Below are positions 22,681 through 33,535 of a DNA stretch of 64,000 nucleotides, in pieces. This DNA comes from Chitinophaga pinensis. Lineage in GTDB: Bacteria > Bacteroidota > Bacteroidia > Chitinophagales > Chitinophagaceae. Each line of letters opens with the position of its first letter. Within the stretch, counting starts at the first letter, position 1. The DNA is taken from the NCBI GenBank assembly GCA_945897185.1, contig CAMDFC010000005.1:1-64000 (forward strand), written 5' to 3'. Made by a program: the position numbers and the translations under genes. Below the pieces are notes generated by a model, which saw only the letters and a program-made list of their open reading frames with translations, was not told the origin of the DNA and did not search any database.

Positions 22681-25600
22681 ATGCTGAATCGGATTATTCG
22701 TTTTTCTGTTAGAAATAAATTAATTGTTTGCCTTTTTACACTGGCATGGATTGTTTGGGGGATTGTCCAGTTGTTCAAGCTGCCTGTAGATGCCCTGCCA
22801 GATATTACTTCTAACCAAGTACAGGTAATTACAGTATCGCCAACGTTGGGCTCTCTAGAAGTGGAGCGTTTGATCACATTCCCCATAGAGCAGGCCTCTT
22901 CTAATATACCAGGAATCAAAGAAATCAGGTCCATATCAAGGTTTGGACTGTCGGTAGTTACTATTGTATTTGAAGATGACAGAGATATTTACTGGTGTAG
23001 ACAACAAGTGAGTGAGCGGATGGGTTTGGTTAAGGAAGAAATTCCAAAGGAGGCGGGTAATCCTGAACTGGCACCCGTGACTACCGGTTTGGGTGAAATC
23101 TACCAATATGTGGTAAAACCGAAAAAAGGGTATGAGTCGCAATACGATCTTACCGATTTAAGGACCATACAAGATTGGATAATCAGGCGTCAGTTAATGG
23201 GAACACCTGGAGTTGCTGATGTAAGTAGCTTTGGAGGTAAATTAAAACAATACGAGGTTGCCATTGATCCAGCAAAAATGAGAAGTGTTGGTGTCACACT
23301 GAACGATGTTTTTTCTGCACTTGAAAAAAATAACGAAAATTCTGGTGCTGCATATATTGAAAAAGGTCCGAGTTTACTCTTCATTAGAACGGAAGGTCTA
23401 GCATTGAATATGGAGGAGATTGGGGCCATTTTTATTACTAAATCGTCATCAGGTACACCGATTTACATTCGAGATGTTGCTGATGTGCGCATCGGAAGCC
23501 CTATCCGTTATGGAGCACTTACTTACCAAGACCAAGGCGAAGTTTCAGGAGCTGTTGTGCTCATGTTGAAGGGTGAAAATGCCTCTCAAGTTATTCATCA
23601 AATTGAAAAAAGGATGAAGCAAATTGAGAAAACTTTACCTGAAGGGGTTGAGATAAAAACCTTTCTGAACAGGACGAAAATGGTGGGCCGGACTTTAAAG
23701 ACCGTACAAACCAATTTAGTTGAAGGGGCACTTATTGTGTTACTCATACTTATTTTCTTTTTGGGCAATATCCGTGCTGGTTTGATCGTAGCTTCTGTTA
23801 TACCGCTTGCCATGTTGTTTGCCGTTGCAATGATGAATCTATTTGGTGTTTCTGGTAATTTGATGAGTTTGGGCGCTTTGGATTTTGGATTAATTGTCGA
23901 TGGTGCTGTAATCATAGTTGAAGCGGTATTGTATCAGTTGCATGCAAGAAGTAAAGGGTTGGTCCGCTTGTCGAGTAACCAAATGGACGACACCGTTGAA
24001 CATGCAGCGGGAAGAATGATGAGTGCTGCTGTGTTTGGTCAGATTATCATTTTGATTGTTTATATACCTATCCTGTCTTTGACGGGTATTGAAGGAAAGA
24101 TGTTTAAGCCAATGGCACAAACAGTTGCTTTTGCATTGGTAGGGGCATTTATTTTGTCGCTTACCTATGTGCCTATGCTCACCAGTTTGACTCTAAGTAA
24201 AAAAGTACCTGTGAAAGAGAATTTTTCTGATAGACTCATGCACAAGTTGCAACAATACCTTAAAATTGTTCTTTCTAAATTTCTACTCCATCCTGCTAAA
24301 GTGCTTACTGGGTCTCTTCTTTTGTTTATATTGTCTCTTTTTGTAGCATCAACACTGGGTGGTGAATTTATTCCAGAGCTGGAAGAGGGAGATTTTGCAA
24401 TAGAAGCACGATTGATGACGGGGAGTACCTTACAAGAAACAGTAGATGCTACAACCAGGGCAGTAACGGAGTTGAAAAAATTTCCTGAAGTGAAAAGTGT
24501 AGTTACCCGAATTGGCGCTAGTGAAATTCCAACTGATCCCATGCCTATTGAAATGACAGACATTATTGTCAATTTAAAAGAGAAAAGTGAATGGACCAGT
24601 GCAGAGAGTTATGATGAGCTGGCCAATAAAATGAGTGTAGCAATTGGTAAGGTACCCGGACTAACAGGCGGATTTCAATATCCTGTGCAAATGAGGTTCA
24701 ATGAATTGATTTCTGGTGCCAAGCAAGATGTGGTCTGTAAAATATTTGGCGAAAATCTTGATACCCTTGCAATTTACGCAGCAGCTTTTGAAAAAGAAAT
24801 TCGTGGGGTTTCAGGAGCAAAAGATGTTTTTGCAGAGCGGGTTACGGGTTTACCGCAAGTTGTAATCAAGTATAAAAAACAGGCCATTGCTGCATATGGG
24901 TTAAATATTTCAGATGTGAATAGAATGCTTCGGGTTTCTTTTGCCGGTGAATCTGCAGGAAAAGTGTATGAGAACGAACGAAGATTTGATTTAGTATTAA
25001 GATTAAAGAAGGACAGTAGAGATGACCTTGGTGACATCAAACAACTCATGCTAACTAATGCGCAAGGAGAAATGATACCATTAGAGCAGGTAGCCGAAGT
25101 GGCTATTGAAGAGGGGCCTAATCAGATACAGCGCGAAGATGCCAAACGGAGAATCACAATTGCCTTTAATGTGCGTGATCGTGATGTACAATCTGTAGTA
25201 GAGGAAGTACAGAAAAAGATAGAAAAAAACATACAACTTCCTCCTGGGTATTATGTAAAATTTGGCGGACAATTTGAAAACCTGACTGAAGCAAAAAACC
25301 GTTTGATGATTGCGGTACCTATTGCACTTTTGTTGATTTTTTTAATACTCTATTTCTCTTTTGGTTCTGTTAGATATGGATTTTTAATTTATTCAGCAAT
25401 TCCTTTATCCGCAATAGGTGGAATTCTTTTACTTTGGGCTCGAGATATGCCATTTAGTATATCTGCCGGCATTGGATTTATCGCCTTATTTGGTGTTGCC
25501 GTATTAAATGGGATTGTTTTACTTAGTGAGTTCAACCGAAATAAAGCTGAAATAGAAAAGGATGTTTCTATTAGCGTAATTGAGGGGACTACCGCTCGAC

Positions 25601-27033
25601 TAAGGCCAGTACTATTGACTGCGGCAGTTGCGTCACTTGGTTTTTTACCCATGGCCTTAAGTACCAGTTCTGGGTCAGAAGTACAGCGACCATTGGCTAC
25701 GGTTGTAATAGGGGGCTTGTTTTCTGCAACTCTTTTGACCCTGTTCGTTTTACCTGTATTATATGTCTGGGTTGAAAAAAGAAAATTAAGAAAAGTAAAG
25801 GCAGTTCCATTGTCTATCCTCCTTTTTCTTGTTCCATTCTTTGGTATATCCCAGTCCAAACAACAGTTACTGCCATTGGATTCTATTCTTCAATTTGCAG
25901 ATAGAAATGCTGCTGTATTGAAAATTGGGAGTAAAAGAATACAGCAATCAGAAATTTTACAAAGCAGGTCTTCTCAAATTCCAAATACAAGTGTTGGCAT
26001 TGAATATGGAAACATTAATAGTGCGTTTAACGATACGAGATTTTATTTAAACCAGGGGTTTGCATTTCCAAAGGTCTACAAAAGGCAAAAAGAGGTATTG
26101 CAAAAAAATGTCGGTTTAGAAAAAGCCAAAACGAACTTAGACAAAGCAGATCTTCATTTACTTGTCCGTCAACTATCCTACCAAATAATGGACTTAGAGC
26201 GAAGGGCGCAAATTCTAGATGAAATAGAAGTAAATTTCGGGGAATGGAGGCGTATAGCTGTATTGCAGCAACAGGAGGGTGAAATCAACAAGAGCATATT
26301 AAATGCCATCGAATTGCAATTCAATCAAAATAAATTGCAAAAATTACAGTTGTTGGCGGACAGGCAATTGTTGTTGCAAGACTTGAAACAAAATATCAAT
26401 TCAGACGATTTATTGGTACCCATATTGGAAAAAAATGCAAGGCTAGATATTCCCTTGTTTGTTCCAAATCTTTTGCAACATCCAACGCTCAAAGTGTCTG
26501 ATGCCATTGTAGCTGAACGTAAAGCACAGCAATTATTCAATCAATCCAAATTAATGCCTGAATTGACTGCCGGGTATAGTAATTTGTCTATTGTTGGATG
26601 GCAAACTCGAGATGGGGTCACCCAGAAATACTATGGAGCTGGCAGTCGATTTGGTGTTATCCAATTTGGAATGGGTATTCCACTATTTAATGGTTCGGCA
26701 AAAGCTAAAATTAAAGCATCCACCTTAGACACAGACATTGCCGAGATTGAAAAGGGGCAACTGTTAGAATATTTAAATATTCAATATGCTAAACTTGTGT
26801 CCAGGTTTATTCAGTATAGTCAAACAACGCAATATTATGAAAGGGAAGGGCTAAAATTGGCAGATGAAATGCGTGACCAAGCTACGATGCGTTTAAAGGC
26901 TGGTGAAATATCATTTGCAGAATGGACCTTGTTGGTAAGCCAATCACTGCAAATAAAAATCTCCTATGCAACTGCAATTCATGAATTGCAAATGGTGGCA
27001 TCAGATTATTATTATTTAACAGAAAAAAATTGA
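22681..27033 (+). CDS. cusA: CusA/CzcA-type heavy-metal RND pump fused to TolC-like outer-membrane channel
   Basis: 1450 residues. Residues 1 to about 1035 form a complete heavy-metal RND transporter: N-terminal membrane helix, large periplasmic loops, DFGLIVDGAVIIVEA in helix 4 (about 401-415), and the second helix bundle (about 880-1035). After WVEKRKLRK, a hydrophobic stretch LSILLFLVPFFGISQ (about 1043-1057) resembles a signal peptide. The remaining about 390 residues are an outer-membrane efflux protein with the coiled-coil repeats of TolC/CusC. Such fusions occur in Bacteroidota. Expected to export Cu(I), Ag(I) or divalent metals with the adaptor encoded next; neighbours favour copper. 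The downstream start follows 2 bp after the stop. Confidence 0.93.
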   Translation: MLNRIIRFSVRNKLIVCLFTLAWIVWGIVQLFKLPVDALPDITSNQVQVITVSPTLGSLEVERLITFPIEQASSNIPGIKEIRSISRFGLSVVTIVFEDDRDIYWCRQQVSERMGLVKEEIPKEAGNPELAPVTTGLGEIYQYVVKPKKGYESQYDLTDLRTIQDWIIRRQLMGTPGVADVSSFGGKLKQYEVAIDPAKMRSVGVTLNDVFSALEKNNENSGAAYIEKGPSLLFIRTEGLALNMEEIGAIFITKSSSGTPIYIRDVADVRIGSPIRYGALTYQDQGEVSGAVVLMLKGENASQVIHQIEKRMKQIEKTLPEGVEIKTFLNRTKMVGRTLKTVQTNLVEGALIVLLILIFFLGNIRAGLIVASVIPLAMLFAVAMMNLFGVSGNLMSLGALDFGLIVDGAVIIVEAVLYQLHARSKGLVRLSSNQMDDTVEHAAGRMMSAAVFGQIIILIVYIPILSLTGIEGKMFKPMAQTVAFALVGAFILSLTYVPMLTSLTLSKKVPVKENFSDRLMHKLQQYLKIVLSKFLLHPAKVLTGSLLLFILSLFVASTLGGEFIPELEEGDFAIEARLMTGSTLQETVDATTRAVTELKKFPEVKSVVTRIGASEIPTDPMPIEMTDIIVNLKEKSEWTSAESYDELANKMSVAIGKVPGLTGGFQYPVQMRFNELISGAKQDVVCKIFGENLDTLAIYAAAFEKEIRGVSGAKDVFAERVTGLPQVVIKYKKQAIAAYGLNISDVNRMLRVSFAGESAGKVYENERRFDLVLRLKKDSRDDLGDIKQLMLTNAQGEMIPLEQVAEVAIEEGPNQIQREDAKRRITIAFNVRDRDVQSVVEEVQKKIEKNIQLPPGYYVKFGGQFENLTEAKNRLMIAVPIALLLIFLILYFSFGSVRYGFLIYSAIPLSAIGGILLLWARDMPFSISAGIGFIALFGVAVLNGIVLLSEFNRNKAEIEKDVSISVIEGTTARLRPVLLTAAVASLGFLPMALSTSSGSEVQRPLATVVIGGLFSATLLTLFVLPVLYVWVEKRKLRKVKAVPLSILLFLVPFFGISQSKQQLLPLDSILQFADRNAAVLKIGSKRIQQSEILQSRSSQIPNTSVGIEYGNINSAFNDTRFYLNQGFAFPKVYKRQKEVLQKNVGLEKAKTNLDKADLHLLVRQLSYQIMDLERRAQILDEIEVNFGEWRRIAVLQQQEGEINKSILNAIELQFNQNKLQKLQLLADRQLLLQDLKQNINSDDLLVPILEKNARLDIPLFVPNLLQHPTLKVSDAIVAERKAQQLFNQSKLMPELTAGYSNLSIVGWQTRDGVTQKYYGAGSRFGVIQFGMGIPLFNGSAKAKIKASTLDTDIAEIEKGQLLEYLNIQYAKLVSRFIQYSQTTQYYEREGLKLADEMRDQATMRLKAGEISFAEWTLLVSQSLQIKISYATAIHELQMVASDYYYLTEKN

Positions 27034-28174: not shown

Positions 28175-28492
28175 TTATTCTCTATAATCTTCTCTAACAG
28201 GACTAAAAACATCTATAAGTTTGCACTCAGTCATTGCTATGGCTGAGTGTGGCGTGTTTGATGGAATGACTTTTACAATGCCTGGTTCAAGTACAAATTC
28301 CTCATTCCCTATTTGCATTTTTAGTTTTCCCTCTATCATGTAAGTGATTTGTTCATGTGGGTGATGGTGCAAAGGCAGATTACTTCCTTTATTGATTGTA
28401 ACAAATCCGAAAGTAGTTGAATTACCATGAACGTATTGTCCAATTATTCCTTCAATGAGCAGTTTCTTTTTTACTTGATCGATGTGTATCAT
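28175..28492 (-). CDS. Small cupin-domain protein
   Basis: 105 residues forming one cupin barrel: motif 1 LPLHHHPHEQITYMIEGKLKMQIG provides several His metal ligands, written here as LPLHHHPHEQ and ITYMIEG, and motif 2 is PSNTPHSAIA. The fold can be a metal-dependent enzyme or a small-molecule sensor. It is the last gene of the minus-strand amidoligase operon, 9 bp after the ATP-grasp-like gene, so it may tailor or bind the pathway product. Its specific activity cannot be inferred from sequence. Confidence 0.85.
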   Translation of the reverse strand: MIHIDQVKKKLLIEGIIGQYVHGNSTTFGFVTINKGSNLPLHHHPHEQITYMIEGKLKMQIGNEEFVLEPGIVKVIPSNTPHSAIAMTECKLIDVFSPVREDYRE

Positions 28493-28501
28493 AATAAATA
28501 T

Positions 28502-29695
28502 TTATTTTTCAAAATAAGCAATACTACCACCTACCCAATCCTTGTCTGCATTGTATCTTACACCAATCATCTTCCCTTTACTAAGTCGTGCTAAGTTGGT
28601 TACTAGCATAGGTCGTGTAGCATGCTCTTCCCATACATACATCATCCTTATTTCAACTTTAGCTGGTGTATTTGGGGTTTGAATGCAGGCTGCATAATTT
28701 ACTTTGTGTTGTAATATCCAATTTTCTGGATCCTGGATATTTGAAATATCTTCATTTTTTACATCAATGATTACACCCTGCCCGGCAAAAGAAAACAGTG
28801 GTTTCAATACAAAGTTTTCAAGATCAGGAGGGATTTTTTCAAGTTGGTTTACGAATTGTGTTTTTGGGATACAAGGATGGGTTAAAAAGGGAAGGGTAAA
28901 TTTAGATATTCTATAAAACCAATGTGGGTGTGTTACCCATTCAACATCATAGTTTTTTGTGAGGTCTATGATTTCTCCAAGTTCATTCTTGATATTGTTT
29001 AATTCATCAGCAATTACCCTATTGTAAATACGTTTTATTTGTAATTTTTTTCCATTGGTAATGTAAAAAAGTTTTTCTCCTTCACAGATTAATTCAGTTA
29101 AACAAACTGGTTTTATACCAAGGTGTTTTTCTGTACAATAGAAATCTATTCTGGTTTTCTGTTTATGCGGATTTATTTCCAGTAAAATTACTTGCTCGCT
29201 TTTACAATCTCCCAAGATTACCTTGCCTAACAATTCCAAATAACCAGCTTTATCTAGGTCGTTAAAATAAGAGGAGTAGTTATCTGGGATGGGGTAGTAT
29301 TTTTCTAGGATTTCAGGATAAAAGGCCTGAAATCCAAATAAGGTAGGAAAGCCTTGCATTTCAATTAGGGCAGGATATAAGCCCCCCATTTCATTTTCAC
29401 AAATTCCAAAATCAAAAGCAATGAAATGCGTATGTTTTCCTTCATTGCTTAGCCTTTCATTTGCAGGAATTGCCCTTTCTGTTTTTTTTAAAAATTCCGG
29501 GTCTATGATGTTGTCTATAATGTACTCACATGTTTCAATCATTTTAGCACCCAATTCTTTACCAATAAAAACAGGTGTTTCTGCTATTCTAAAATCAATA
29601 GCCCCAGGAAATTCACTGTTGAGTGCTATTAAAAATTCTTGATAGGTTTTTTCTGAAAAATTTGAATTGATGAGCTTTCTAATTGAAGAAATCAT
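28502..29695 (-). CDS. Glutathionylspermidine-synthase-like ATP-grasp protein
   Basis: 397 residues, no signal peptide. FDFGICENEMGG and PALIEMQGFP resemble the substrate region of glutathionylspermidine synthase-type ligases (acidic residue, then E-x-Q). LQIKRIYNRVIADEL and FVLKPLFSFAGQGVII correspond to their nucleotide-binding part (KPL...G-G-V). The C-terminus KVEIRMMYVWEE and GGSIAYFEK closes the ATP-grasp fold. I infer an ATP-dependent amide-forming ligase; it could also be a divergent or inactive homologue. It sits between a class I amidotransferase (16 bp upstream) and a cupin (9 bp downstream) in one operon with two other ligases. Confidence 0.6.
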   Translation of the reverse strand: MISSIRKLINSNFSEKTYQEFLIALNSEFPGAIDFRIAETPVFIGKELGAKMIETCEYIIDNIIDPEFLKKTERAIPANERLSNEGKHTHFIAFDFGICENEMGGLYPALIEMQGFPTLFGFQAFYPEILEKYYPIPDNYSSYFNDLDKAGYLELLGKVILGDCKSEQVILLEINPHKQKTRIDFYCTEKHLGIKPVCLTELICEGEKLFYITNGKKLQIKRIYNRVIADELNNIKNELGEIIDLTKNYDVEWVTHPHWFYRISKFTLPFLTHPCIPKTQFVNQLEKIPPDLENFVLKPLFSFAGQGVIIDVKNEDISNIQDPENWILQHKVNYAACIQTPNTPAKVEIRMMYVWEEHATRPMLVTNLARLSKGKMIGVRYNADKDWVGGSIAYFEK

Positions 29696-29711
29696 GGTGT
29701 TACTCTTCTGG

Positions 29712-30551
29712 TTATGAAAGGCTGAAAGGGTTTGTGATACTTTTAATGGATTGCATTAAAAAATTAGGTAGAACATATTTATTGGTGAGACTGATTTTAT
29801 CCGGATCATTTAATTGATCAAGCATCGATGTCCATTTAACCAGACCATGATTTTCTATTACGGTTTGTTTTTTATCCTCTCTTTTTAAGTACATGCTCAT
29901 TCCCTGTGCATCTGCTTCAGGATGAAATTGTGTTCCAACCATGTAGGGGTTGAAACGGATTGCCATTACAGCCCTTTCAAGGTCTATATGCGGACGTTCC
30001 TTCTCAATACACAGTACTTCACCTCCCATTTCATGAACTCGCTGCTTATTGGTTTGTATTACTTGATAATCTCTACTATCAACACCATAGAAGGGGTCTG
30101 CTAGACCATTGAATATTGGATCTGTCTTTCCTTGGTGATTGAGCATGTGAATTGGGAATACGCCAAATGCAGTTGATTTCCTCTTAATCACTTCTCCAAT
30201 TTCAAAATACCTGCATGCAAGTTGAAAGGAATGGCAGATTAGGAAAACAAACTTTTTATTAGGATTATTGGGGTTTTTGTTCCATTGGTCAACCATACCC
30301 AGCCATTTGAAATAAGCAATTTCCCATGCTGAACCTAGGCTTGACAAGGGACTTCCTGGTCCACCTGAAGAAATATAAATATCGTAATCTAGTGAAGGAA
30401 TTTGTAATTCTTTTCTCACTTCAAATTCTTCCCACTCTAAATTAATGACATTGTTATTCTTTAAGTTGTCGAGTAAGTTCCTAATACACCTCATGCCTTG
30501 GTTAGGCATTCCTTCGTTCATATCTAGTATGGCAACATTTATTTTTTTCAT
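29712..30551 (-). CDS. Class I glutamine amidotransferase-like protein
   Basis: 279 residues. The GATase class I triad is visible: nucleophile C106 in FLICHSFQLA, and H210 and E212 in GTQFHPEAD, with SSGGPGSP forming the early glycine loop. It would release ammonia from glutamine or hydrolyse a gamma-glutamyl bond. No synthase domain is fused, so a partner must use the product; the adjoining ATP-grasp proteins are candidates. About 60 C-terminal residues after the triad are extra. It is in the middle of the minus-strand ligase operon with 16-17 bp spacings. Confidence 0.85.
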   Translation of the reverse strand: MKKINVAILDMNEGMPNQGMRCIRNLLDNLKNNNVINLEWEEFEVRKELQIPSLDYDIYISSGGPGSPLSSLGSAWEIAYFKWLGMVDQWNKNPNNPNKKFVFLICHSFQLACRYFEIGEVIKRKSTAFGVFPIHMLNHQGKTDPIFNGLADPFYGVDSRDYQVIQTNKQRVHEMGGEVLCIEKERPHIDLERAVMAIRFNPYMVGTQFHPEADAQGMSMYLKREDKKQTVIENHGLVKWTSMLDQLNDPDKISLTNKYVLPNFLMQSIKSITNPFSLS

Positions 30552-30568
30552 TGTGGTGCAAAATTACA

Positions 30569-31675
30569 TTAAAGTGGGGCTAGAAAATTAGATTCGATAA
30601 ATGTCGCCACATCTTCAAGGCTATTATTTCTTTTGAATACGGCAAGTTGTCTATCAGCGCCAGTCCCTTTTTCTAAAATTCTTGTTATGCTCTTCAATGC
30701 GTCTCTGCAACCTAAATCATCTACTACATCATCAATGAAATCAAGAAGTTCTAGAATAAGTGAACGGGTGTCCACTTCTTGTTCTTTGCCAAAATCAATC
30801 AGTTTATGGTCTATGCCGTATCTAGACGCTCGCCATCTGTTTTCATTAAGGAGTGCTCTAGAATAAAGAATAAAATTCAAGTTGTCTGCACGCAACTTAT
30901 ACAGTTTAACACAGATGCATTGAAAGAGTGCCGCAAACCCAATTGTTTCGTCTACGGTTAATGGTACATCACATATTCTAAATTCTACAGTTCCATAGAT
31001 TGGATGAACCCGTAAGTCCCACCATATTTTTTTTGCATTATCAATACATTTTGTCTTGATAAGTAGATTCACATAGTTCTCATAAGCGCTGTAGCTATCA
31101 AAATAGTCTGGTATTCCAGTTCTTGGAAATTTATCAAACACTTTGGTTCTGTAAGATTTAAAGCCAGTTTCTCTTTTTTCCCAAAAAGGCGAATTGGTGC
31201 TTAATGCAAATACGTGTGGTAGGAAATACCTAGCAGAGTTGGCAATATGTATAGCCATTTCTTTTGATGGCATTCCAACGTGCACATGTAAGCCAAAAAT
31301 CAGGTTTGATCTTGCAGCATCCTGCATTTCATTTACAATTTCTTTGTACCTGATGTGGTCTGTTATTAATTGATGACGCCAGGTGCTAAATGGATGGGTG
31401 CCTGCGGCGGCAGTGCTGTAGCCTAATCCATTGGCAATATTTCTTATGGTTTCTCTTAAATTGAAAATATCAGCCCTTGCTTCTTCAATATTTGTACATA
31501 CGTCGGTTCCTACTTCCACTACAGCTTGATGCATTTCTGCTTTTACTTTTTCACCAAAAACTTTTTGTCCTTCAATCACTATTTTTTGTTCATGACTAAT
31601 TAACTCCTTCGACTTTGGGTCAATTACCATGTATTCCTCCTCAATCCCAACTGTAAATAATTTGTAGTTGATCAT
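30569..31675 (-). CDS. ybdK: YbdK-type carboxylate-amine ligase (GCS2 family)
   Basis: 368 residues of the glutamate-cysteine ligase 2 family: GIEEEYMVID (10-19) carries the metal-binding acidic cluster, with HQAVVEVGTDVC, GLHVHVGMP, and the late VEFRICDVPLT. These proteins share the glutamine-synthetase-like fold and join a carboxylate to an amine using ATP. E. coli YbdK has weak gamma-glutamylcysteine ligase activity; the true substrate is generally unknown. Here the operon context (two ATP-grasp proteins, a glutamine amidotransferase) points to a dedicated small-molecule pathway. Length and motifs are complete. Confidence 0.9.
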   Translation of the reverse strand: MINYKLFTVGIEEEYMVIDPKSKELISHEQKIVIEGQKVFGEKVKAEMHQAVVEVGTDVCTNIEEARADIFNLRETIRNIANGLGYSTAAAGTHPFSTWRHQLITDHIRYKEIVNEMQDAARSNLIFGLHVHVGMPSKEMAIHIANSARYFLPHVFALSTNSPFWEKRETGFKSYRTKVFDKFPRTGIPDYFDSYSAYENYVNLLIKTKCIDNAKKIWWDLRVHPIYGTVEFRICDVPLTVDETIGFAALFQCICVKLYKLRADNLNFILYSRALLNENRWRASRYGIDHKLIDFGKEQEVDTRSLILELLDFIDDVVDDLGCRDALKSITRILEKGTGADRQLAVFKRNNSLEDVATFIESNFLAPL

Positions 31676-31691
31676 GTTTGGTATTTAAAAT

Positions 31692-32645
31692 CTATAATGC
31701 TTTTTGAACAATACTTCGTTTGATGTATTCACCCCAAGAAAGATTATCTGTTCCATCTTTTATATTTTGAGCAGTTTCAATTGCAAAATTTGCAGCGTTT
31801 TCAACTACCCATTCAAAGTTTTCTTCTCCTACACTTTTTAAATCAGCGTCAGGTGCAGGGTTGCAGAAGTCAATGGCATAGGGAATACCATCTCTGATTG
31901 CAAGTTCCACTGTATTAAAATCGTAGCCCAAGTAGTTGTTTATTTTCAAAACAATATCTTCCATTGTTTTAAGCAATTTAGCTGAAGGCTGGTGATTGGC
32001 AACGTATCTCAAATGATGGGGGTTTCTTGGCTCATAAGGCATGATGCGGACGTGTTTTCTCCCAATGCAATAACACCTATAATACTCTTCAAAAATGATT
32101 TCTTCTTGTAACAACATTACAAGCTGACCAGTTTCGGCGTGCGTTTGAAAAAACTCTTCCATATTGTTCAGTCGGTAAACATTTTTCCAACCACCACCAG
32201 CAAAGGGTTTCATATATGCCGGAAAGCCAACGTATTCAAAAATGCTGTTCCAGTCTAGGGGGTAGGCCAGATTAGAAAACGAAGCTTCAGCGGTATCGTC
32301 AGGTAAATCTCGTGAAGGAAGAATTACTGTTTTTGGCACTGGGACATCAATCTTTGTTGCAAGGGCATTGTTAAAAAATTTTTCATCAGCACTCCACCAA
32401 AAAGGATTGTTAATTACTGCAGTACCAGATATCGCGGCATTCTTTAAATAAGCTCTGTAAAAAGGGACGTCTTGTGAAATTCGATCTATAATTACGGCAT
32501 ATCCTGAAGATTCTCCTTGTGCAACTTTATTGATTTTTACAGATTCTGCAGTAATCCCTTTGTGGTTTTTGTCATTGATTCTTTTTACAAATGCCTCAGG
32601 AAAACTACGCTCCTTACCATGCAAGATGCCAATCTTTTTATTCAT
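31692..32645 (-). CDS. RimK-like ATP-grasp ligase
   Basis: 317 residues. The central ATP-grasp domain shows FPAYMKPFAGGGWKNVYRL (lysine and glycine-rich loop), MLLQEEIIFEEYYRCYCIG, and the Mg-binding pair in NTVELAIRDG and IDFCNPAPD (E...N). This is the usual arrangement of ligases that activate a carboxylate as acyl phosphate and join it to an amine. It is the first gene of the five-gene operon running to 28175, and is divergent from an esterase gene. Likely partner substrates are amino acids or small peptides; which ones cannot be said. Confidence 0.85.
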   Translation of the reverse strand: MNKKIGILHGKERSFPEAFVKRINDKNHKGITAESVKINKVAQGESSGYAVIIDRISQDVPFYRAYLKNAAISGTAVINNPFWWSADEKFFNNALATKIDVPVPKTVILPSRDLPDDTAEASFSNLAYPLDWNSIFEYVGFPAYMKPFAGGGWKNVYRLNNMEEFFQTHAETGQLVMLLQEEIIFEEYYRCYCIGRKHVRIMPYEPRNPHHLRYVANHQPSAKLLKTMEDIVLKINNYLGYDFNTVELAIRDGIPYAIDFCNPAPDADLKSVGEENFEWVVENAANFAIETAQNIKDGTDNLSWGEYIKRSIVQKAL

Positions 32646-32720
32646 TTGTTTTTGTTGTTGGCCTAAGTTAATGATTTTATCTGTTTATCGTATTTACTTT
32701 TTAAGAACATATCCTTTGCT

Positions 32721-32728
32721 TACTTTTG
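32721..32728 (+). promoter_or_regulatory. -7 box TACTTTTG before the esterase gene
   Basis: Fits TAnnTTTG, 15 bp upstream of the esterase ATG, in the divergent region with the ligase operon. No equally good box was seen for the minus-strand operon. Confidence 0.45.
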
Positions 32729-32743
32729 CCAGGATAACAAAGT

Positions 32744-33535
32744 ATGGTGAAGCAAGAATTTCAATCGTTTATTATTTCTTCTGGGCTTTTAAAGCGCCTA
32801 GTTAAAGTAGACATATACCGTCCGACGTTGTTTGATGAATCATCTTCTATGAATGTGTTGTTCATTAATGATGGACAAGATCTTGTAAAGATGGGCTTCT
32901 CTAAAATGATAAAAAATCAATTGGGTGCTGAAAGAACGCTTATTGCTATTGGTATTCATGCTGGGATAGAAAGGCGACAAGAATATGGCGTTGCTGGTAT
33001 TCCTGATTATTTGGATAGGGGAAATAAAGCCTTCGTTTATTCTAGATTTATTTTGGATGAACTAATTCCGTATATAAAATCTGTCTTTCCTACAGCAAAA
33101 ATTGATAAAAAGTATTTGGCTGGATTTTCACTAGGTGGATTAATGGCATTTGACATGGCGTTGGAATACCCGCATGAGTTTTCCGCAGTAGGGGTATTTA
33201 GCGGTTCGTTTTGGTGGCGTTCAAAGTCCCTGGAAAACGGATATGTAGAAGAAGTAGACCGAATCATGCATGCAAAAATTCGTAACAAAAAAAGAGAGGC
33301 ACACCTCAGGTTTTTCTTACAAACAGGCCAATTAGATGAAACCGCTGATAGAAATAACAATGGCATTATTGATTCTATTGATGATACCATGGGCATCATC
33401 GGGGAGTTAAAGAGAATTGGGTACGAGCCCAATGAGCAAATAACTTATTTAGAACTACCTGATGGTAAACATGAAGTTAAAACATGGGGTAGGGTAATGC
33501 CAATGTATTTACAATGGCTTGACCAGCTAAAATAA
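32744..33535 (+). CDS. Cytosolic esterase-D-like hydrolase with EF-hand loop
   Basis: 263 residues, alpha/beta hydrolase of the putative esterase family. Nucleophile S129 lies in LAGFSLGGLM. TGQLDET (D198) is a plausible acid, and GKHEVKTW near residue 249 gives the histidine. Residues 202-213 (DRNNNGIIDSID plus D213 at the end of the loop) follow the 12-residue calcium EF-hand pattern, next to the likely catalytic aspartate. No signal peptide. It is divergent from the ligase operon, from which it may remove acyl or peptide groups; that link is inferred from position. Confidence 0.82.
   Translation: MVKQEFQSFIISSGLLKRLVKVDIYRPTLFDESSSMNVLFINDGQDLVKMGFSKMIKNQLGAERTLIAIGIHAGIERRQEYGVAGIPDYLDRGNKAFVYSRFILDELIPYIKSVFPTAKIDKKYLAGFSLGGLMAFDMALEYPHEFSAVGVFSGSFWWRSKSLENGYVEEVDRIMHAKIRNKKREAHLRFFLQTGQLDETADRNNNGIIDSIDDTMGIIGELKRIGYEPNEQITYLELPDGKHEVKTWGRVMPMYLQWLDQLK

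Follow-up and report, generated by a model that had tools for sequence, protein, structure and literature searches.

A co-inherited set of amide-forming enzymes in the Bacteroidota, probably serving one pathway to a small amide-linked metabolite

Introduction

What might three different ATP-dependent amide-forming enzymes make when their genes stand together in a single operon? The question is raised by a stretch of 64,000 nucleotides from Chitinophaga pinensis (contig CAMDFC010000005.1 of assembly GCA_945897185.1; this whole stretch is called the window here). It carries minus-strand genes for a RimK-like ATP-grasp ligase, a YbdK-type carboxylate-amine ligase, a class I glutamine amidotransferase (GAT), a second ATP-grasp ligase resembling glutathionylspermidine synthetase (GSPS-like) and a small cupin, with an esterase gene diverging from them. 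A first-pass annotation had described a tight five-gene operon with a divergent esterase, and that layout is accurate: all six open reading frames (ORFs) lie in the window where it placed them, the gaps from the cupin gene to the RimK-like gene are 9, 16, 17 and 16 bp, within the 9-17 bp it gave, and 98 bp separate the RimK-like gene from the esterase gene. From the families and folds of the enzymes, their intact active sites, their co-occurrence and the replacement of one ligase by another, we infer, with rather more confidence than doubt, that these genes encode one pathway building a small amide-linked metabolite of the pseudopeptide type.

Co-inheritance of the ligases across the phylum

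Profile matches, with short or weak ones excluded, were counted in 296 Bacteroidota genomes with a completeness of 90% or more. The RimK-like gene is present in 107 of these, the YbdK-like gene in 102, the GSPS-like gene in 91 and the GAT gene in 70, and 50 genomes have all four. Each pair co-occurs far beyond expectation (Fisher p 1e-21 to 1e-51, related genomes not being independent samples). The two ATP-grasp ligases are found together in 88 genomes, with 19 genomes carrying the RimK-like gene only and three the GSPS-like gene only (Fisher 6e-52), so that 274 of the 296 genomes are concordant. By hand count, 14 families hold both genomes with this pair and genomes with neither gene. The only discordant members of these families are one genome with a GSPS-like gene and no RimK-like gene and one whose sole RimK-like match is a divergent homologue. 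The reading of the ligases as a single functional set is supported, as are the intactness of their active sites and their conservation across the phylum.

Conserved synteny had been put forward as a check on this claim, and strict linkage is not what is seen. All four genes lie inside 8 kb in 30 of the 50 genomes that have them. The RimK-like and GSPS-like genes are at most 6 kb apart in 48 of the 88 genomes with both and are unlinked in the other 40, some of which reflect assembly breaks; in single-contig genomes they are separated by 552 kb, 745 kb, 1.7 Mb and 3.2 Mb. Near-perfect co-occurrence nevertheless persists, and since it does so at such distances, shared inheritance must go beyond operon inertia. 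The GAT gene mostly stands next to the GSPS-like gene (within 6 kb in 41 of 55 cases) or next to the alternative ligase described below, and a YbdK-like gene is present in 86 of the 91 genomes with a GSPS-like gene.

The strongest single argument for placing the RimK-like and GSPS-type enzymes in one route comes from ligase replacement. Fifteen genomes have the RimK-like and GAT genes and no GSPS-like gene, and every one of them carries a circularly permuted (CP) ATP-grasp gene (PF14403). This gene is found at full score in exactly those 15 of the 296 genomes, a sixteenth having one clearly weaker match, and it sits between the RimK-like and GAT genes at all ten such loci where both neighbours could be read. 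Each of the 103 genomes with a non-divergent RimK-like gene therefore has exactly one of the two alternatives, the GSPS-like gene (88) or the CP ATP-grasp gene (15); the four RimK-like matches left over, with E 1e-61 to 1e-105, are to divergent homologues. All 70 genomes with a GAT gene also have one or the other. Profile alignment of the two ligases is collinear but weak (E 0.012, probability 3.7%). Such a replacement predicts that the GSPS-like and CP ATP-grasp enzymes form the identical bond.

Two cassettes fused in one operon

Which genes belong to the system was judged from the 80 nearest loci found with the RimK-like protein. The esterase gene had been taken for a mere divergent neighbour, yet it adjoins and diverges from the RimK-like gene at all 80 loci and is part of the core. 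At 77 loci the RimK-like gene has a YbdK-like gene next to it, and the other three include loci at contig ends. By contrast, the GAT and GSPS-like genes are present at only 14 of the 80 and the cupin gene at eight. Of the five genes proposed as a unit, the cupin is a local accessory outside the core.

The pair missing from the short loci is present elsewhere in the genome. In 30 Chitinophagaceae genomes whose RimK-YbdK locus lacks the GAT and GSPS-like genes, each of these genes is found elsewhere in 29, usually adjoining the other. The operon therefore consists of two cassettes, esterase/RimK/YbdK and GAT/GSPS, which are fused in the lineage of the window and lie far apart in other genomes. 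Outside the Chitinophagaceae the genes frequently run esterase, second esterase (PF00756), RimK, YbdK, GAT, GSPS; this second esterase also belongs to the system, as does the CP ATP-grasp that takes the place of the GSPS-like gene in other lineages. No relatives of the system were found in plasmid and viral collections and, as far as these show, it is chromosomal.

Folds and active sites of the enzymes

The assignment of the ligases to three amide-forming families holds, on different kinds of evidence: the GCS2 (YbdK-type) enzyme is identified by Pfam and NCBIfam, and the two ATP-grasp enzymes by the folds of their AlphaFold2 (AF2) models rather than by sequence models. Neither ATP-grasp protein has a Pfam match at E<=0.01 or a match from a PDB sequence search. 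Far from being lost in most homologues, the outcome that the first-pass annotation had named as fatal to its reading, the active-site residues of the set are conserved.

The model of the RimK-like protein (pLDDT 90.8) has the ATP-grasp fold of the RimK/LysX type. It matches RimK with Z 22.6 (2.8 A over 264 residues) and LysX and ArgX with Z about 22, these fold matches spanning about 260 residues at 2.6-2.9 A overall. With these enzymes it shares the ATP-grasp lysine and the glycine-rich loop as well as the fold. It differs from them in being only 14-17% identical, in scoring 26.5 bits on TIGR00768 against a cut-off of 143.4, and in having conserved features of its own, the loop YEPRNPHHLRY and the motif IDFCNPAPDAD. 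The protein is related to the RimK family and is not filed as a member of it.

The GSPS-like model (pLDDT 89.6) matches over its full length the ligases YgiC and YjfC, E. coli Gss and the eukaryotic glutathione synthetases (GSS), mostly with Z of 22-25. The values are Z 25 for YgiC and YjfC (for YgiC, 25.1 at 3.6 A over 344 residues) and Z 24 for Gss and human GSS, with more than 340 residues aligned. Two ATP-site lysines, K265 and K298, are invariant in 21 homologues and align with K498 and K533 of Gss; E112, also invariant, aligns with the Mg-site residue E330, on the N-terminal side where the alignment is weak, and the motif KP-x-x-S-x-x-G is held in common. The protein is nevertheless only 11-14% identical to these enzymes, and it has no fused amidase domain. 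Instead, a GAT is often encoded by a companion gene.

The YbdK-like protein is the most readily classified. It scores 200 bits on PF04107 (cut-off 21) and 513 bits on PRK13515, the NCBIfam model of the YbdK type (cut-off 371), and the EEE and HxH active-site motifs that it shares with E. coli YbdK are invariant among homologues. Enzymes of the YbdK type suggest gamma-glutamyl chemistry, which for this protein is a guess. It differs from E. coli YbdK in belonging to a multi-ligase set, and its gene is the sole PF04107 copy in the genome.

The GAT scores 32.8 bits on PF00117 (cut-off 22.8) and had no match from the PDB sequence search. Its Cys-His-Glu triad had been described as intact, and Cys106, His210 and Glu212 are indeed invariant in 20 homologues. 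The motif SGGPGSP, which is typical of glutaminase-type GATases, is also invariant or nearly so. This motif favours a role in supplying ammonia over the trimming step offered in the first-pass annotation, which is a guess.

In the esterase the serine of GFSLGG is conserved among relatives. An EF-hand-like loop, DRNNNGIIDSIDD (window 33347-33385), is present in this protein and in most of its relatives, across families, and a calcium site is suggested by its sequence.

The locus and its surroundings

The features of the locus are collected in Table 1. The nearest relatives of the window in the species collection are Chitinophagaceae or other Bacteroidota.

Table 1. Genes and intergenic region of the amide-ligase locus in the window
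Feature	Positions	Strand	Evidence and remarks
Small cupin; lineage-specific accessory at the operon end	28175-28492	-	PF07883 1e-14; 8/80 nearest relatives
GSPS-like ATP-grasp ligase, GSS/GSPS fold	28502-29695	-	AF2 fold match; no Pfam family match
Class I glutamine amidotransferase (GAT)	29712-30551	-	PF00117 6.7e-8; C106/H210/E212 triad; SGGPGSP motif
YbdK/GCS2-type carboxylate-amine ligase	30569-31675	-	PF04107 5e-59; PRK13515
RimK-like ATP-grasp ligase; constant member of the system	31692-32645	-	AF2 fold match
Divergent intergenic region, 98 bp	32646-32743	.	Candidate -7 box TACTTTTG
PF00756 esterase, divergent; in Chitinophagaceae a core partner to the RimK-like gene	32744-33535	+	PF00756 5e-24

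Two sequences may be promoter elements. The first, TACTTTTG, lies 15 bp 5' of the esterase ATG and resembles the Bacteroidota -7 box; it is only a candidate, since a motif scan found this motif unenriched in the window (65 observed against 85 expected). The second, TAATTTTG, also of this unenriched motif, is on the minus strand at window 30559-30566, within the 17 bp that precede the GAT gene. If this possible -7 box is functional, the GAT/GSPS cassette could have a promoter of its own.

The locus is flanked on one side by genes for PdxJ, a DUF2911 protein and S-adenosylhomocysteine hydrolase and on the other by an efflux system, an arrangement that recurs in the genus. Within the window, positions 22681-27033 form one ORF of 1450 aa, a fusion of an RND transporter (PF00873) and an outer membrane efflux domain (PF02321).

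Other genes adjoin the system in particular lineages. At about nine Chitinophagaceae loci the RimK-like gene is separated from the YbdK-like gene by one for a putative endonuclease of the Uma2 family (PF05685). A PF07969 amidohydrolase gene adjoins the GAT/GSPS pair at five Chitinophagaceae loci and the GSPS-like gene in two distant families. In one lineage group (three loci) the cluster is adjoined by an M17 aminopeptidase gene and by one for another ATP-grasp (PF13535), and a PF13535 ATP-grasp gene is also the last gene of two operons of the CP ATP-grasp type.

Discussion

The pathway that we propose would be cytoplasmic, conserved in the Bacteroidota and made up of consecutive ATP-dependent ligations, whose order is part of the proposal. 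Two ligations, by the RimK-like enzyme and by a ligase of the GSS/GSPS superfamily, would be its invariant core. The RimK-like ATP-grasp would convert a carboxylate to an acyl phosphate and then couple this with an amine or an amino acid. The next amide bond would be made by the GSPS-like enzyme or, in other lineages, by the CP ATP-grasp, and in the GSPS-type lineages the YbdK-type enzyme would make a third, probably of gamma-glutamyl type. The esterases may strip or transfer an ester-linked group. The GAT would hydrolyse glutamine and pass the ammonia on to the GSPS-like enzyme or the CP ATP-grasp to give a primary amide; this role, with its choice of partner, is tentative, the co-occurrence in 70 of 70 genomes being circumstantial.

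Several observations sit uneasily with this scheme. The RimK-like, GSPS-like and YbdK-like genes occur without a GAT gene in 33 genomes, so a supply of ammonia cannot be required in every case. The YbdK-like gene is missing from one family with the RimK-like, GSPS-like and GAT genes, and it is present in only seven of the 15 genomes with the CP ATP-grasp, where the homologue is more distant and lies at a different locus. Finally, the catalytic R316-x-D318 motif of Gss is absent from the GSPS-like family, which has Gln at the position of the Mg-ligand N332, in a region where the alignment is weak (N-terminal), and because of these differences its chemistry may depart from that of Gss.

Of the alternatives, an unlikely one is a catabolic or salvage route, in which the YbdK-type ligase would gamma-glutamylate amines, the GAT would act as a gamma-glutamyl hydrolase, much as in PuuA/PuuD, and the esterases and an amidohydrolase would open the substrate. 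The hydrolases near the ligases speak for it: two PF00756 esterases, the PF07969 amidohydrolase beside the GAT/GSPS pair in several families and the M17 aminopeptidase in others. However, the two ATP-grasp ligases would be superfluous for degradation and are the invariant core, the GAT matches PF00117 rather than the Pfam family of PuuD and bears the glutaminase motif, and there is no transporter or oxidase gene that recurs from family to family.

A thiol pathway akin to that of glutathione or glutathionylspermidine is likewise improbable, even though the enzyme types fit a glutathionylspermidine route one to one. The YbdK-type enzyme would make gamma-glutamyl-X, the RimK-like enzyme would add a residue, the GSPS-like enzyme would attach a polyamine and the GAT would be the reversing amidase, a role played in E. 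coli Gss and in trypanothione synthetase by an amidase domain. Among solved structures, YgiC, YjfC, Gss and the glutathione synthetases come nearest in fold to the GSPS-like protein. Against this, the GSPS-like family has not kept key residues of Gss, the YbdK-like gene is absent from a family that retains the other three, and there is no cysteine-specific evidence. The bacillithiol enzyme BshC is found in 290 of the 296 genomes, with or without the ligase genes, which speaks against a need for them as the cell's thiol system, and an extra thiol would still be compatible with this distribution. A further point in favour of the thiol route is that YgiC and YjfC are reported to be peptide-spermidine ligases (cited in PMC12568646).

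There is much less to be said for modification of a ribosomal peptide or a protein, as in graspetides and other ribosomally synthesized and post-translationally modified peptides or in protein tagging. The ATP-grasp fold of the RimK-like enzyme is common to RimK and the graspetide ligases, but the 9-17 bp gaps of the window operon cannot accommodate a precursor ORF, and no conserved small ORF recurs at other loci in a search that covered ORFs of at least 80 aa; this reading is very improbable. Least probable of all is co-inheritance by phylogeny or chance of genes that do not act together: related genomes are not independent samples and a shared contig can be history alone, but joint presence and absence within 14 families, joint presence at megabase distances and the clean exchange of the GSPS-like gene for the CP ATP-grasp all argue against it.

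We thus return to a single biosynthetic pathway as the preferred reading. Networks of amidoligases were reportedly predicted by Iyer, Aravind and colleagues in 2008-2009. The first-pass annotation knew of no characterised product for this arrangement, and none was found in the literature searched. Nor did the open literature searched, with the 2009 amidoligase survey outside it, contain an account of this gene set, of its organisation in two cassettes, of its co-inheritance throughout the phylum or of its ligase replacement. Clustering of GCS2-like genes with GAT-like and other genes for small-peptide synthesis has been predicted, for another GCS2-like family (PMC2588565). Pathways of stand-alone amide ligases are already known for E-64, dapdiamide and cystargolide (PMC12568646). 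In these, as in the proposed pathway, successive ligases couple acid, amino acid and amine, E-64 using the ATP-grasp Cp1B together with Cp1D (PMC12568646), and the GSPS-like protein has Cp1B (9cjn) among its fold matches. The window system differs from them in its partner families, in having no warhead enzyme and in its broad co-inheritance across the phylum.

Such a distribution bears on what the product might be. About a third of the sampled Bacteroidota carry the genes, nearly always in single copy, and the genes are lost as a set; for these reasons they probably make one molecule of general cellular use. With less assurance, we suggest that this may be an undescribed and widespread Bacteroidota metabolite, built by the RimK-like enzyme and one of two interchangeable GSS-superfamily ligases, with ammonia from the GAT and a gamma-glutamyl cap. 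Being widely distributed, co-inherited and single-copy, the genes would argue for a cofactor or protectant that forms its own class, and not for a secondary metabolite. Cultured carriers, among them strains of Sediminibacterium, Flavihumibacter and Niabella, make a metabolomics experiment direct, and identification of the product would assign a function to two ATP-grasp families that have no matching Pfam model.

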